Below, piece after piece: positions 1 through 5,261 of a stretch of DNA of 45,826 bases. Each line of letters starts with the position of its first letter. Position 1 is the stretch's first letter. Location of the stretch: the NCBI GenBank assembly GCA_014378995.1, contig JACMMP010000239.1:1-45826 (forward strand), in the 5' to 3' direction. Under the pieces are notes generated by a model that searched no databases, had not been told where the DNA came from, and was given only the letters and a program-made list of their open reading frames with translations. Origin of the DNA: Hyphomonadaceae bacterium. GTDB lineage: Bacteria; Pseudomonadota; Alphaproteobacteria; Caulobacterales; Aquidulcibacteraceae. The translations under genes were made by a program, and so were the position numbers.

Positions 1-204
1 CATTGCGCGACATCGCCTGGAACGCTTGCGCGTTGGCGGCGAGCGCGTTGAACGCTTGGGCGTCACGCGCCAGCGCCTGGAACGCTTGGGCGTTCGATGC
101 TTTGGCCTCCAACGCCCAAGCGTTCCAGGCGCTGGCGCGTGACGCCCAAGCGTTCAACGCGCTCGCCGCCAACGCGCAAGCGTTCCAGGCGATGTCGCGC
201 AATG
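1..204. repeat. 94-bp perfect inverted repeat (arms 1-94 and 111-204, 16-nt spacer)
   Basis: Bases 1-94 are the exact reverse complement of 111-204, checked base by base; the pairing fails at 95/110. The left arm begins at the first base of the window. The right arm has the coding orientation of the decapeptide-repeat gene, and the same orientation recurs near 598-709, so the left arm is the inverted copy. A perfect arm ending exactly at the sequence end is typical of a fold-back chimera or a hairpin contig end, but a real DNA hairpin cannot be excluded from sequence alone. Confidence 0.95.
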
Positions 205-1061
205 CCGAAGCGTTCCAAGCTTTGGCGCGCGATGCGCAAGGCCTCACGGCGATGTCGCGCAGCGCGCAAGCATTCCAGGCGCAAGCGCGCGACGCCCAGC
301 TCGCTTCCGCCTTTGGCTCCAACGCCCAAGCCTTCGCCGTAATGGCGCGGGAGCCGCAAGCTTTCGCGGCGATGGCGCGGCATCCCCAAGCGTTCGAAGC
401 GCTGGCCCGTCATCCTCAAGCGTTCGCGGCGATGGCGCGCGATCCGCAGGCGTTCGCCGCCTTCGCGCGCGGCTCAAACTTCGCCGCCGCCGCCCGTGAA
501 CCGCAAGCGGTGGCCGCTATGGCGCGGGACGCGCAAGCCTTCCAGGCGCTCGGCCGCGACGCTCAAGCCATGAACGCTCTCGCCCGCGATGCGCAGGCGT
601 TCGATGCTTTGGCCTCCAACGCCGAAGCGTTCCAGGCGCTGGCGCGTGACGCCCAAGCGTTCAACGCGCTCGCCGCCAACGCGCAAGCGTTCCAGGCGAT
701 GTCGCGCAACGCGCAGGCGTTCAACGCCTTGGCGCGCGACGCGCAAGGCCTTTCGGCGATGGCGCGCAATGCCCAAGCGTTCCAGGCGCAGGCCGCTGCG
801 ATGCGCTCGGCGCAAGGGATGAACGCTCAGGCGTTTGCGATCATGGCGCGGCATCCGCAAGCCTTCGCCGCTATGGCGCAAAACCCGCAAGCGTTCGAAG
901 CGCTGGCGCGCAGTCCCCAAGCGATGAACGCACTGGCGTCCAACGCGCAAGCGTTCACGGCGCTGGCGCGGCAACCCGCATTCGCGGCGTTGGCGCGTGA
1001 GCCTGCGTTCGCGGCAATGGCGCGCGATCAAAGCTTCGCCAACGCCATCCGGGCGAATTGA
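3..1061 (+). CDS. Decapeptide-repeat protein, 5' end uncertain
   Basis: I do not recognise this protein. From about base 95 to the stop it is almost wholly tandem ten-residue units with consensus A-Q-A-F-Q-A-L-A-R-D. A variant has proline first (P-Q-A-F-A-A-M-A-R-H). About 31 units are visible. Blocks of alanine-type units alternate with proline-type units, and the whole block order occurs twice, offset by 507 bp (169 residues); both copies open with F-D-A-L-A-S-N. Hydrophobic residues fall at positions 1, 4 and 7 of each unit, which suggests amphipathic helices (inference). No membrane segment or cysteine pattern is seen in the repeat part. The open frame through bases 1-94 reads the inverted arm, gives a different low-complexity sequence (tryptophan, alanine, asparagine) and has no ribosome binding site before it, so the true start is probably missing. 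The stop lies 67 bases before the next gene on the same strand. Function unknown. Confidence 0.6.
   Translation: MRDIAWNACALAASALNAWASRASAWNAWAFDALASNAQAFQALARDAQAFNALAANAQAFQAMSRNAEAFQALARDAQGLTAMSRSAQAFQAQARDAQLASAFGSNAQAFAVMAREPQAFAAMARHPQAFEALARHPQAFAAMARDPQAFAAFARGSNFAAAAREPQAVAAMARDAQAFQALGRDAQAMNALARDAQAFDALASNAEAFQALARDAQAFNALAANAQAFQAMSRNAQAFNALARDAQGLSAMARNAQAFQAQAAAMRSAQGMNAQAFAIMARHPQAFAAMAQNPQAFEALARSPQAMNALASNAQAFTALARQPAFAALAREPAFAAMARDQSFANAIRAN
91..709 (+). repeat. Direct super-repeat, 507-bp period, within the repeat gene
   Basis: Bases 91-202 and 598-709 match at every position except 117/624 (c versus g). The offset of 507 bp is 169 codons, so the frame is kept. Outside this core the two halves continue to match at protein level, block by block, with more divergence. 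A recent internal duplication or gene conversion is the simplest reading. Confidence 0.85.
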
Positions 1062-1128
1062 CGCGTCCCGGCGCGTCGTAAAGGCGAGGCGCCGATAAGG
1101 CGCCCGCCAGACGTGCTAGGTGGGGGAC

Positions 1129-4100
1129 GTGGGAATCCGCACGCTTCTGTGCTCCGTGGCAGCGCTAGCGCTCGCGCCTATTGGCGCGGCGCATGCGCAG
1201 CAAGACGCTCTAGCGCCGCTTCAAGAGGCGCCGCCGCAGGATAATGTGGCGGCGCCGCCCTTGGCGCCCCAGCCCGTCGGCGAGGAGCAACCGCCGCCGC
1301 CCAGCCGCGCCCCGGAAGACATTCCGGTTATCGATTTGAGCCGCATCGAAACCGAGGACTTACGCCTCCTCTATTTCGACCCCTCCGAAACGTATCTGAC
1401 ACCCTATGTCGGGCGCAGCTTCGAGAACGCGCTTGCCTATCAGCGCCGCATGTTCAACTGGGAGCCGTGGGATCAGGTCACGCTGCTGCTGAAAGATTTC
1501 TCCGATTACGGCAACGCCGCCGCGCGCTCCTCACCCAACAACGCGCTGCTGATCGACATCGCCCCGCTCAGCTTGACGTACGAGACGTTCAGCCCCGGCG
1601 AGCGCTTTTACACTTTGACCAATCACGAAGTGACGCACGTCGCTTTGATGGATGTCTGGAACGAGCGCGACGCATTCTGGCGGCGCGCCTTCGGCGGCAA
1701 GCCGATGCCGGTGCAGGAGCATCCAGAATCGATCCTCTACAATTATCTCACAACACCGCGCGTGAACGTGCCGCGCTGGTATCTCGAAGGCAGCGCCGTG
1801 TTCATGGAGACATGGATGGCCGGCGGCTTCGGCCGCGCCCAGGGCGCTTACGACGAGATGGTGTTCCGCTCGATGGTGCGCGACGACGCGCATTTCTATT
1901 CGCCGGTCGGCCTCGAATCCGAAGGCATCTTCGTCGACTTCCAAGTCGGCGTGAACGATTACCTCTACGGCACGCGCTTCTTCAGCTATCTGGCGCTCAC
2001 CTATTCGCCCGAACAAGTGGTGGAATGGCTACGGCGCGATGAGGACAGCGAAGCCTATTACGCCTCGCAGTTCGAGCGCGTGTTTGACCGCCCGCTGGGC
2101 CAAGCTTGGCGCGACTGGATTGCGTGGGAGCACGAATTTCAGCGCGTCAATCTGGCGTCGGTGCAGGCGTTTCCGCTGACGCAAGCGTCGCCGCTGGCGC
2201 CGCGCGCGCTCGGTTCGGTTTCACGCACCTACATCGATCCCAGGACCGGCGATCTCATCGGCGCGTTCCGCTATCCCGGCGTGATCGGGCACCTCGGTGT
2301 TCTGTCGCCGCAATCGGGCGACATCCGCCGGCTCACCGACATCAAGGGGGCGATGCTTTATCGCGTCACCTCGCTCGCCTACGATCCAGAGACCAACACA
2401 GCCTGGTACACGACCGACAATTACGCCTACCGCGACATCATGCAGATCGATGTCGCAAGCGGGCGCCAGAGCATGGTGCTGCGCGACGCGCGTATCGGCG
2501 ACGTGGTGTTTAACCCAAGCGACCGCTCGCTCTGGGGCCTGCGGCACCTGAATGGCTTTGTCACCCTGGTCCGCATTCCGGCGCCGCACACGAACTGGAA
2601 CCAGGTTCACACGTTCCCGTTCGGCCGCGTTCCGTTCGATCTCGACATCTCCCCGGACGGCGCGTTGCTATCGGCCTCAGTCGGCGAAGTGAGCGGCGAT
2701 CAATCGGTGCAAGTTTTCCGCATCGATGAATTGTTGGCTGGTTCATCGACGCCGATCGCTCAGTTCACCATGGGCTCATCGACGCCCGAAGGGTTCGTGT
2801 TCTCGCCGGACGGTCGCCACCTCTACGGCAGCGCTTACTACACCGGCGTCTCCAACATCTTCCGCTTCGAGATCGCGACGCAGACGCTCGAGGCTGTCAG
2901 CAACGCCGAGACCGGATTCTTCCGCCCGATCCCGCAAGCCGATGGCTCCCTCATCGTCTACGAATACACGGGCGACGGCTTCCGGCCGGCCGTGATCCAG
3001 CCGCAGCCGCTCGACGATCTGGGCGCCATCCGCTTCCTTGGCGCTGAAATTGCGCAGCGCCATCCGATCGTGACGACGTGGACCGCGGGCTCGCCGAGCC
3101 AAGTCGATTTCGACGCCATGATCACAGAACGCGGGCGCTACGTCCCACGTGACGAAATGCGCCTTGGCGCCGCCTACCCGGTTATTGAAGGCTATCGTGG
3201 CCGCGCCGCGCTCGGCTATCACGTCGTGTTCGAGGATCCGCTGCAGTTCAACACACTGCATGCGACGTTATCCTACACGCTGGACTCCCCATACGAGGAC
3301 CAGGACTGGCACTTCGATATTGAGTACCGCACCCTAAAGTGGCGCTTCCGCTACTGGCACAACGATGCGGACTTTTACGACTTGTTCGGCCCAACCGAAC
3401 GCGCCCGCGCAGGCGACGCGGCCATCGTCGGCTATCGCCACTCCTTCATCTACGATCCGCCGCGCCAACTCGATCTTGACGTTGAAGCGGCGTACTACAC
3501 CGGGCTGGACACTCTGCCGACGGCGCAGAACGTCCAGAGCCAGTTCGATACGCTCGCCTCATTCAATGCTCAGCTGCACTACACCAACACGACGCGCTCA
3601 CTCGGCGCGGTGGATCACGAGCGCGGCTGGCGCTGGGATCTGGCGGTCGGCGCGGATCATGCCAATGACGAGGTTTTCGCGAGCATTCGCGGCGGCGTCG
3701 ATTTCGGCGTGCCGCTGCCGATGAACAATTCCTCGGTCTGGCTCTACACCGCGGCCGGGACAGTGGGAGGCGATGAGCAGAGTCCGCTGGGCAGCTTCTA
3801 TCTGGGCGCCTTTGGCAACAATTACGTCGATGACCGCGAAGTGAAGCGCTATCGCGAATACGACAGCTTCCCCGGCTTTGAGATCAACGAGATCAGCGCC
3901 CGCACCTTCGTGCGCGCCGTCGCGGAGGTGAACCTGCCGCCGATCCGGTTTGAAGACATCGGCAATGCGAGCTTCTTTCTGAGCTCCGTGCGCACCGCGG
4001 CCTTCCTTGGTGCGCTGGAGGCGGAGCCCAGCATTGGCGAGCGCCGGTCATTGCAGACGGTTGGCGTTCAAGCCGATTGGAATTTCACGGTCGCACACCG

Positions 4101-4194
4101 ATTGCCGATGGTGTTTTCTCTCGGCTATGCTGAGGGCTTCGAGGATGGCGAGCGCCAAGGCAACGAAGTGCTCGTGTCGCTGAAGATCATGTGA
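1129..4194 (+). CDS. Exported zinc-peptidase / propeller / beta-barrel fusion protein
   Basis: The 1021-residue product begins with a signal peptide ending near A-H-A-Q, then a proline-rich linker to about residue 65. The next 270 residues hold a gluzincin-type site: H166-E-V-T-H170, with E220 in W-Y-L-E-G as the likely third zinc ligand, as in the Peptidase MA-like group. Residues of about 345-640 contain repeated S-P-D-G-type turns typical of WD40/TolB-like propellers. The last 350 or so residues are rich in alternating aromatic strands and look like an outer-membrane beta-barrel, although the final residue is Met rather than the usual Phe. I chose GTG 1129 because AGGTGGGGGA precedes it; GTG 1120 is the alternative. 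A surface or periplasm-facing protease is inferred; the substrate is unknown. It overlaps the following PrsW gene by one base, so the two are probably made together. Confidence 0.8.
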   Translation: MGIRTLLCSVAALALAPIGAAHAQQDALAPLQEAPPQDNVAAPPLAPQPVGEEQPPPPSRAPEDIPVIDLSRIETEDLRLLYFDPSETYLTPYVGRSFENALAYQRRMFNWEPWDQVTLLLKDFSDYGNAAARSSPNNALLIDIAPLSLTYETFSPGERFYTLTNHEVTHVALMDVWNERDAFWRRAFGGKPMPVQEHPESILYNYLTTPRVNVPRWYLEGSAVFMETWMAGGFGRAQGAYDEMVFRSMVRDDAHFYSPVGLESEGIFVDFQVGVNDYLYGTRFFSYLALTYSPEQVVEWLRRDEDSEAYYASQFERVFDRPLGQAWRDWIAWEHEFQRVNLASVQAFPLTQASPLAPRALGSVSRTYIDPRTGDLIGAFRYPGVIGHLGVLSPQSGDIRRLTDIKGAMLYRVTSLAYDPETNTAWYTTDNYAYRDIMQIDVASGRQSMVLRDARIGDVVFNPSDRSLWGLRHLNGFVTLVRIPAPHTNWNQVHTFPFGRVPFDLDISPDGALLSASVGEVSGDQSVQVFRIDELLAGSSTPIAQFTMGSSTPEGFVFSPDGRHLYGSAYYTGVSNIFRFEIATQTLEAVSNAETGFFRPIPQADGSLIVYEYTGDGFRPAVIQPQPLDDLGAIRFLGAEIAQRHPIVTTWTAGSPSQVDFDAMITERGRYVPRDEMRLGAAYPVIEGYRGRAALGYHVVFEDPLQFNTLHATLSYTLDSPYEDQDWHFDIEYRTLKWRFRYWHNDADFYDLFGPTERARAGDAAIVGYRHSFIYDPPRQLDLDVEAAYYTGLDTLPTAQNVQSQFDTLASFNAQLHYTNTTRSLGAVDHERGWRWDLAVGADHANDEVFASIRGGVDFGVPLPMNNSSVWLYTAAGTVGGDEQSPLGSFYLGAFGNNYVDDREVKRYREYDSFPGFEINEISARTFVRAVAEVNLPPIRFEDIGNASFFLSSVRTAAFLGALEAEPSIGERRSLQTVGVQADWNFTVAHRLPMVFSLGYAEGFEDGERQGNEVLVSLKIM

Positions 4195-5261
4195 TGGATG
4201 CCGACCTGCTTTTGAAAGCGCTCATTGCGCTTGCGCCTGTGCTGATCCTCCTTCTCGTGTTCGACCGGCTCGACGTATTCAACCTCATTCCGCTCCGGGA
4301 CATCGCGCTGCTGGCGCTGACCGGTGCTGCGCTGGCGCTCATCGGCTTTCTCGCGAACTGGACCGTGATTGAAGGCTTTCCGATCGGCTTCGGCGCTTAC
4401 ACGCGCTATGGCGCCCCAGTTATCGAAGAGACGCTGAAAGCGGCGCCGGTGATCGCACTTTTTGCGAGGAACCGTTTGGGGTTCAAGATCGATGCGGCGA
4501 TTGCGGGCTTCGCCGTTGGGGCCGGCTTCTCGGTGGCGGAGAACGCCTGGTATCTCTTCACCATCTCCGGCGCCAACGTCAGCGATTGGCTTGTCCGCGG
4601 CTTTGGCACCGCGGTGATGCACGGCGCCGCCACCGCCCTCTTCGCCATCGTCTCGCACGAAATGTCGGAGAAGCAGGCGGCAAGCTCGGCGGCGCACTAT
4701 CGCTTCACGCCGCTACTTTTCCTGCCCGGGCTCGCGCTGGCGATGGCGATCCATTCGGCCTTCAATCATTTTCCGAACTATCCGTTGCCGATCATGGCCG
4801 TCACTCTGTTGCTGGCGCCGCTGACGCTGTTTCTGACGCTGCTGAAGAGTGACCGCGCGACGCAGCAATGGCTTTCAGCTGACGCCGCCGCCCATCGCAA
4901 GGCGCTGGCGGACATCCGCGCCGGCCATTTTTTGCAAAGCGACGTTGGCCGCGCCGTTCTCGAAGCGGTGGCGCCGATCAAGGGAGTCAGCGCGGAGGAC
5001 GTGCTCGCATGGGCGGAACTGAAAACCGCGCTGATCCTGCGTGCGGAGGAACTCATTCTCGCGAGCCACGCCGCCGCTGCAGACGCCGCTGGCGAAGACG
5101 AGCGTTTGCAGTTCGCTCGGCTCGACGCGCTCGAACAGCGTTTGGGTAAGACGATCGTGGCGGCGATTAACTCCCGTCTCGGTTTCAGCCGCAACGACGT
5201 CTACGAGTTGGGCCGCCTGCGCGTGCGTGTGCAATCAAGCAAGGCGACGGATGCAGCGTGA
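4194..5261 (+). CDS. PrsW-family intramembrane protease
   Basis: This 355-residue protein has several hydrophobic segments in its first 220 residues and the four PrsW signatures: E78-E79 in V-I-E-E-T-L-K, E116-N117 in S-V-A-E-N-A-W, H143 after a Met, and H187-x3-N191. PrsW proteins are membrane-embedded proteases; the Bacillus founder cleaves the anti-sigma factor RsiW. The soluble C-terminal 130 residues, predicted helical, are not part of the core family fold and may be a regulatory tail. ATG 4194 overlaps the preceding TGA by one base (TGATG), which implies translational coupling to the zinc-peptidase/barrel gene. A role in proteolytic envelope signalling is an inference; no sigma or anti-sigma gene lies beside it. 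Confidence 0.85.
   Translation: MDADLLLKALIALAPVLILLLVFDRLDVFNLIPLRDIALLALTGAALALIGFLANWTVIEGFPIGFGAYTRYGAPVIEETLKAAPVIALFARNRLGFKIDAAIAGFAVGAGFSVAENAWYLFTISGANVSDWLVRGFGTAVMHGAATALFAIVSHEMSEKQAASSAAHYRFTPLLFLPGLALAMAIHSAFNHFPNYPLPIMAVTLLLAPLTLFLTLLKSDRATQQWLSADAAAHRKALADIRAGHFLQSDVGRAVLEAVAPIKGVSAEDVLAWAELKTALILRAEELILASHAAAADAAGEDERLQFARLDALEQRLGKTIVAAINSRLGFSRNDVYELGRLRVRVQSSKATDAA

Follow-up and report, generated by a model that had tools for sequence, protein, structure and literature searches.

A decapeptide-repeat protein with a predicted membrane anchor is encoded beside two putative proteases in a Hyphomonadaceae bacterium and other proteobacteria

The first gene of the window (the whole stretch of 45,826 nt that was analysed) reads as a chain of ten-residue units and raises the question of whether such a monotonous sequence is a true protein and, if so, what it does directly upstream of a gene for an exported peptidase. 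The window comprises contig C69 in full, one of 252 contigs in a draft genome that is 88% complete, and the gene lies at its very edge.

The repeat gene and the contig edge

The frame at 96–1061 (+) is open and is built of units of the type D/N-A/P-Q-A-F-x-A-L/M-A-R, which bears out the decapeptide units proposed in the preliminary description. A pattern parse gave 30 matches, 27 of them in a ten-residue register and three overlapping out of register, and left a few degenerate units unparsed, so that the earlier count of about 31 units is a fair one. Tandem Repeats Finder reported 64% matches between 30-nt units at 110–788, and the self-identity of the protein at a lag of 10 was 0.476 compared with at most 0.235 in 500 shuffles.

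When comparing the sequence with itself a longer period of 169 residues (507 nt) was also seen. The protein self-identity at lag 169 was 0.474 over 152 residues, the control being at most 0.294 in 50 shuffles (best of lags 100–199), and the DNA self-identity was 0.565 at lag 507 but 0.26 at 506 and 0.25 at 508. The first block copy is located at 93–599 (+) and the second, together with a C-terminal tail conserved in the genus according to the orthologues, at 600–1061 (+); the best-matching part of the duplication covers 213 nt with 89% identity. The second block ends at the stop codon and is shifted by an indel (lag 167 also scores 0.40), and while the 507-bp period was thus recovered, the claim that the entire block order is duplicated holds only approximately. 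Within one protein the two blocks are on average 80% identical (12 proteins), whereas between proteins the first blocks share 71% and the second blocks 76% identity (66 pairs each), means that include distant pairs. The argument is instead carried by a tree, given without support values, in which, for the more divergent proteins (L026 with L029, L028 and L030), blocks cluster by species, and this grouping suggests that the repeat blocks have been homogenised inside genes.

The gene does not begin at position 95, as had been assumed; it is cut by the contig edge, and the window holds its C-terminal part at 93–1061 (+), with 321 codons from position 96, as delimited by the orthologues and by the remainder of the gene on another contig. 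The 216 N-terminal codons form the 3' end of contig C89 (14059–14706), whose final 30 nt recur exactly at position 477 of the window, and it may be at this shared stretch that the assembly broke. Comparison with the second block suggests that about 32 codons are lacking between the two parts. A promoter-like sequence, TTGAC...GCTAC, was found by eye in an alignment of the upstream regions, conserved in the genus, and in L016 it is located within ~80 nt before 14059; it suggests that transcription starts at the repeat gene.

Bases 1–92, to which no strand was assigned, are identical in 92 of 92 positions to the reverse complement of 113–204 and enclose with it a loop of 20 nt. With bases 1–92 included, the longest exact inverted repeat measures 94 nt; once these are removed it falls below 12 nt, while exact inverted repeats in six orthologous genes reach at most 14 nt. 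Nothing comparable to the fold-back at 1–204 was found in the six orthologues or in the part on C89, and bases 1–92 are probably a contig-end fold-back, i.e. an artefact of assembly. Other contig ends in this draft assembly may carry the same fault.

This fold-back, together with antisense frames that are likewise open for long stretches, could be taken to mean that the region encodes no protein and is untranslated repeat DNA or a product of the assembly. The substitution pattern speaks strongly against it. Compared with the closest orthologue, L072, over 320 codons, the gene shows dS 1.29 and dN 0.087 with 37, 16 and 152 changes at codon positions 1, 2 and 3, which supports the translation of this strand as described earlier. 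None of the remaining five frames does as well (dS 0.72 and dN 0.14 in the best, an antisense one), and coding in another frame or strand could be ruled out. In nine pairs of repeat genes dN/dS was 0.03–0.11, indicating purifying selection, and 14 further genomes of the genus contain orthologues, as do named isolates, Sphingomonas alba for example. The explanation is thereby refuted for 93–1061 and holds solely for 1–92, and for the locus as a whole we give it practically no credence. The repeat gene is a real and strongly conserved gene for a predicted bacterial envelope protein, cut off in the window.

Distribution, anchor motif and relatives of the repeat

At an E-value of 1e-3 the repeat gene matched 17 of 61 related genomes. 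One match (L033 in G021, E 7.7e-4) was dropped as spurious, the frame reading as ATP synthase delta, which leaves 16 true carriers: the genome itself, 14 further members of the genus (the gene running into a contig edge in one of them) and a single genome of a different family in the order. Wider searches showed a patchy spread, with 21 of 398 genomes in the order (E 1e-5) and 5 of 385 in the class (E 1e-8), the own genome counted in both. A scan of GTDB species genomes with an N-terminal alignment yielded 44 loci, whose carriers are labelled Hyphomonadaceae, Caulobacteraceae, Caulobacter, Phenylobacterium, Croceicoccus, Marinicaulis, Wenzhouxiangella, Rhizobacter and other proteobacteria as well as Sphingomonas, the latter including S. 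segetis, S. alba, S. cremea, S. caseinilyticus, S. rhizophila and further Sphingomonas.

Full orthologues are ~520–575 aa long. In the complete proteins of the genus a short tail is followed by a hydrophobic helix, a conserved segment (GTIAPAERYRSAQVxDxDVTLGDxxVPxLMQTDAFELMVNDPSFRALA) and then repeat units up to the C-terminus. In an alignment of 45 sequences (43 loci, L110 and the gene of the window) no variation is seen at G, T, I and R in GTIAPAxRY, at G in LGD or at Q and D in MQTD, all 45 being identical there, and the part common to all lineages consists of the anchor and this juxtamembrane motif. Neither the membrane anchor nor the cut at the contig edge had been recognised in the preliminary description.

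The repeats that follow the motif differ. Among 43 proteins the best period was 10 residues in 36, nine in five and eight in two, and the number of residues after the motif ranges from 177 to 562. Weak periodicity was seen in L095 and L102–L104 (identity 0.17–0.19 against a background of 0.10–0.13), and L110 contains a four-residue AANS repeat as far as the contig end. In L105 (9941–11143) and L106 (5650–6777) the anchor motif is followed by an eight-residue repeat of Ala, Ser, Lys and Asp (AAADSAAK type) with a period identity of 0.76–0.83.

The repeat had been described as belonging to no named family, and for Pfam and NCBIfam this largely stands: nothing scored above its cut-off for the protein of the window, and no family describes the unit. 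Pentapeptide, HEAT and Sel1 repeats, with which a comparison had been proposed earlier, and TPR were not listed by Pfam for the window protein at E 1, nor for 13 or 10 members of the family at E 0.01. Short Pfam matches and a common D/N-P-x-x-F-x-x-L pattern make YlbE, STI1/HOP DP and XPC-binding domains resemble the unit, but the YlbE matches span only 24–27 of 61 profile positions. The YlbE (PF14003) whole-protein cut-off of 27 was reached by two of ten orthologues (28.2 and 27.0 bits); these scores are sums of pieces of 24–26 residues, none significant alone and with no single-domain match, and YlbE was rejected. Also set aside were DUF2153, Cons_hypoth95, STI1, XPC-binding and PMG, below cut-off wherever one was shown, and FANCI cap, HRP, pb9, ClfA and SMc04171, which appeared below cut-off for the eight- and nine-residue proteins and were taken as low-complexity matches.

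Where the earlier description fell short is that a relative does exist among phage tail fibres. The sequence search was led by 7QLR, a receptor-binding protein of C. difficile phage CDHS-1 (profile E 4.6e-13), and the phage family phrog_7809 matched three of five repeat proteins, namely those of the window (E 1.8e-14), L072 (6.4e-16) and L094 (2.4e-25), with no match to the nine-residue proteins L107 and L109. PMC13324602 refers to a bioRxiv preprint (Dowah et al. 2021) for the receptor-binding structure of a siphophage, and this would appear to be 7QLR. Both 7QLR and phrog_7809 share with the repeats tandem ten-residue units having N, D or S at the join and hydrophobic residues inside; they belong to phage virions, whereas the repeat gene is chromosomal, located beside proteases and membrane-anchored. 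In the search that found 7QLR, WRAP-T chains, which we take to be designed propellers, scored down to E 7e-6, and part of the score of 7QLR may therefore be repeat bias. We read the two as the same kind of repeat, a similarity that stops short of proof of common descent. A tblastn search with L094 found no match in 50,697 phage records, a weak test as simple repeats were filtered.

The packed helices proposed earlier found some support in structure prediction. An AlphaFold2 model of L072 (15 sequences) shows mostly an eight-residue helix and a two-residue turn per unit, at a mean pLDDT of 53 and pTM of 0.30. With this low-confidence model Foldseek also placed 7QLR first (E 1.6e-4, TM 0.21), and beta-catenin entries were listed at E 1.3e-3 and up with TM 0.2–0.36. 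A helical solenoid of repeats is thus weakly supported by the model.

The downstream protease genes

On the same strand and directly downstream, as had been noted before, lies the gene for an exported protein of 1024 aa at 1120–4194 (+), in which a metallopeptidase, a beta-propeller and a beta-barrel follow each other. The N-terminus reads as a putative signal peptide (1120–1197, +) ending in AHA/QQ, with the cut between A and Q. An alignment of homologues placed a HEVTH zinc-binding motif at residues 169–173 (1624–1638, +), and H169, E170, H173, E223 and E230 are invariant in 36 of 36 aligned homologues. Gluzincin-type metallopeptidases are recognised by HExxH plus a downstream Glu; this combination was found in all 36, and by motif the product is a putative gluzincin-type metallopeptidase.

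For structure prediction the alignment of 36 rows (A5) was reduced to 34 (A6) by removing L104, which is cut, and L105, which contains masked letters. The resulting AlphaFold2 model has a mean pLDDT of 80 and a pTM of 0.76. A search with the whole model barely covers the peptidase domain. For residues ~352–631 (2173–3012, +) VIA on the predicted model indicated a TolB-like propeller (Z 20.8, 242 residues, rmsd 2.7, model range 352–609), and residues ~681–1024 (3160–4191, +) are predicted from the model strands and VIA to form a C-terminal barrel like that of Deinococcus BamA, 8xnb (Z 19.3, 284 residues, rmsd 4.2, the first and last aligned residues being 192 and 1022). The product missed the Pfam cut-off for Omp85 (Omp85_2, 13.1 bits against 23.1). 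In its barrel and propeller folds the protein is similar to BamA/Omp85 and TolB but differs from them in the metallopeptidase domain that precedes both.

The start of the third gene, located at 4191–5261 (+), overlaps the stop of the barrel gene. It encodes a PrsW-family intramembrane protease according to Pfam (PF13367, 58.6 bits, cut-off 23.5) and its conserved residues, while the narrower NCBIfam PrsW model NF033739 was missed (20.3 bits, cut-off 225). The PrsW family is characterised by the conserved motifs EE, E, H and H, and in 33 sequences E79 E80, E117 N118, H144, H188 and N192 are kept at 95% or more.

The three genes form a conserved cassette, a feature missing from the preliminary description. 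In 41 of the 44 loci the peptidase gene comes next, on the strand of the repeat gene, and in the other three (L088, L097 and L110) the contig runs out inside the repeat gene. The gap between the two genes has a median of 55 nt; a single wide gap among the 41, of 844 nt, occurs in L090 (5785–6632). Where 700 nt or more of sequence remain (34 loci), a PrsW gene follows in 32, the two that have room but no PrsW being L086 and L107. Among the 61 relatives 16 carry both the repeat gene and the peptidase (E 1e-20) and 45 neither, and within the genus of the window both are found in 15 of 30 genomes; the relatedness of these genomes makes any formal chance figure for the co-occurrence too small. When the peptidase was searched for across the phylum it was found in 3 of 398 genomes, the own one counted, and a tblastn search gave no match in 72,556 plasmid records. 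Anti-phage defence was considered and dropped, PADLOC giving no match for four proteins.

In the two other carriers from the phylum-wide search, L112 and L113, whose peptidase relatives come from another family, only the N-terminal part of the peptidase matches and the genes directly upstream read as glycosyltransferase and pheT; by sequence, there is a wider peptidase-propeller family with members lacking a repeat gene directly upstream.

A barrel and a protease adjoining the gene of a repeat protein whose best outside relative is a phage tail fibre or receptor-binding protein could indicate a secreted surface fibre, which the peptidase or PrsW would cut from its anchor and the barrel carry to the surface. 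Such a fibre would work as an adhesin or phage-fibre-like binder, with units that vary because the partner surface differs, and it would fit the change of repeat type across lineages. PrsW has moreover been proposed, in PMC3482391, to process and export polymorphic proteins. The context is not that of a phage, with the protease cassette present in 41 of 44 loci. BamA is an insertase, and it is this fold that the barrel resembles; within the genus the repeats are, in addition, under strong purifying selection. We consider a surface fibre unlikely, also in view of the genes found upstream in some loci.

Upstream sigma-factor genes and the proposed role

Analysis of the DNA before the repeat gene showed that 9 of 44 loci (L081, L094, L102, L103, L104, L107, L108, L109 and L110) encode a kinase of RsbW type, a STAS protein and an ECF sigma factor there on the same strand, the domains being identified with Pfam in L107 and with BLAST in the others. 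A PP2C phosphatase gene is present in eight of the nine, L104 beginning inside the kinase gene. In the remaining 35 loci no such module was found on the same strand within 6 kb, a count in which the upstream DNA is short for several. The order of SpoIIE (PP2C), HATPase_c_2 and STAS genes resembles RsbU/RsbW/RsbV, with the differences that it adjoins an ECF-type sigma gene and that the module is not beside the gene of the window.

A separate anti-sigma-like gene occurs in L081, L094, L107, L108 and L109, a naming that rests on gene position and BLAST. The L107 protein is below the anti-sigma cut-offs (zf-HC2 20.1 bits against 22.2, NCBIfam anti-sigma 30.6 against 100), the L103 protein scores 20.5 bits with the NCBIfam model (cut-off 100), and the anti-sigma-like proteins of L094 and L102 have no Pfam match. 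In L102, L103, L104 and L110 the anti-sigma-like domain, anchor and motif are contained in one open frame with no intervening stop; compared with the separate anti-sigma proteins BLAST gave E 3e-6 for L103, 1e-8 for L104 and 6e-5 for L110, while the domain of L102 was judged by alignment to L104. Where the anti-sigma-like domain gives way to the anchor, all four have an internal ATG in frame, preceded by a Shine-Dalgarno-like GGAG. Constraint on the linker of these shared frames is weak (for two of three pairs pN approaches or exceeds pS), and together with the internal GGAG-ATG this makes a separate, shorter second product, and thus two products from one open frame, possible in these loci.

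Nothing similar was found for the gene of the window. Its first codons begin just before the anchor, with no anti-sigma domain on the same chain, and sigma or anti-sigma regulators were found neither on C89 nor in the window; a search for the sigma factor in the own, 88% complete genome gave eight distant matches at 26–31% identity, and one for the kinase gave no match, a negative of little weight with this tool.

A passive role can also be imagined, in which the protein is a spacer or tether in the periplasm, joining inner and outer membrane and bound to the barrel protein by its C-terminal end, the proteases serving only for turnover. The anchor at one end, the C-terminal tail conserved in the genus, an outer-membrane partner gene and the regular short-helix pattern of the model are all in line with this. 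A spacer is, however, hard to reconcile with a threefold variation in length after the motif (177–562 residues), and it leaves the sigma module unexplained; we hold it to be quite improbable. The sigma module in 9 of 44 loci and the frame shared with an anti-sigma-like domain also suit signalling better than a surface fibre.

Constant in this family are the anchor, the motif and the proteases, while the variable part is the rod. BamA-type proteins have the domains before the barrel in the periplasm, and the peptidase would accordingly stand next to the rod. PMC4598750 and PMC3482391 describe PrsW as the protease that acts at site 1 on the anti-sigma factor RsiW. Taken together, the constant anchor, motif and proteases, the link to sigma genes in a minority of loci and this role of PrsW suggest a protein that is read by proteases across the envelope, and a protease-linked periplasmic signalling protein is our best, if still tentative, reading.

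As a signalling protein it would be held in the inner membrane through a single helix near its N-terminus, which would lie inside, the invariant juxtamembrane motif being placed just outside the inner membrane and followed by a long periplasmic rod of tandem short alpha-helices. It would be the partner, and probably the substrate, of the two co-encoded proteases, the first an outer-membrane barrel protein with its metallopeptidase and propeller domains facing the periplasm and the second, in most cases, PrsW in the inner membrane. The repeat protein would in this way serve as the periplasmic arm of a proteolysis-controlled system for envelope signalling or remodelling. The output would, in certain loci of beta-, gamma- and other proteobacteria, go to the adjacent ECF sigma factor, controlled by PP2C, kinase and STAS proteins, and to the anti-sigma factor, while the lineage of the window would have kept anchor, rod and proteases but has no such regulators close by.

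The system resembles RsiW/PrsW/sigmaW of B. subtilis in having a PrsW-family protease and a single-pass membrane protein and, in 9 of 44 loci, adjoining ECF sigma and anti-sigma-like genes. It differs by the outer-membrane peptidase-barrel protein, the long repeat rod and the lack of sigma and anti-sigma genes in most loci, that of the window among them. One version of the signalling reading is a relay across both membranes, in which the peptidase on the BamA-like barrel would cut the rod, thereby license PrsW and, where present, free the ECF sigma factor; the rod unit would then be swappable (ten, nine or eight residues) with the reading device unchanged, and this combined proposal we regard as rather unlikely. 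No description of such a relay was found in the openly licensed literature, and we do not claim that the cassette is unpublished.

If the peptidase does cut the rod, an intramembrane protease would be reached from the outer membrane by direct physical means, a matter that is still open in envelope signalling outside the best-known examples. The family, with tandem repeats quite unlike one another behind the same anchor, also lends itself to studies of the origin and replacement of repeat proteins. What appeared as an odd repeat becomes a testable system of three genes, present in cultivable bacteria, and the repeat protein and its proteases may be part of an unfamiliar mechanism by which cells sense or remodel their envelope.
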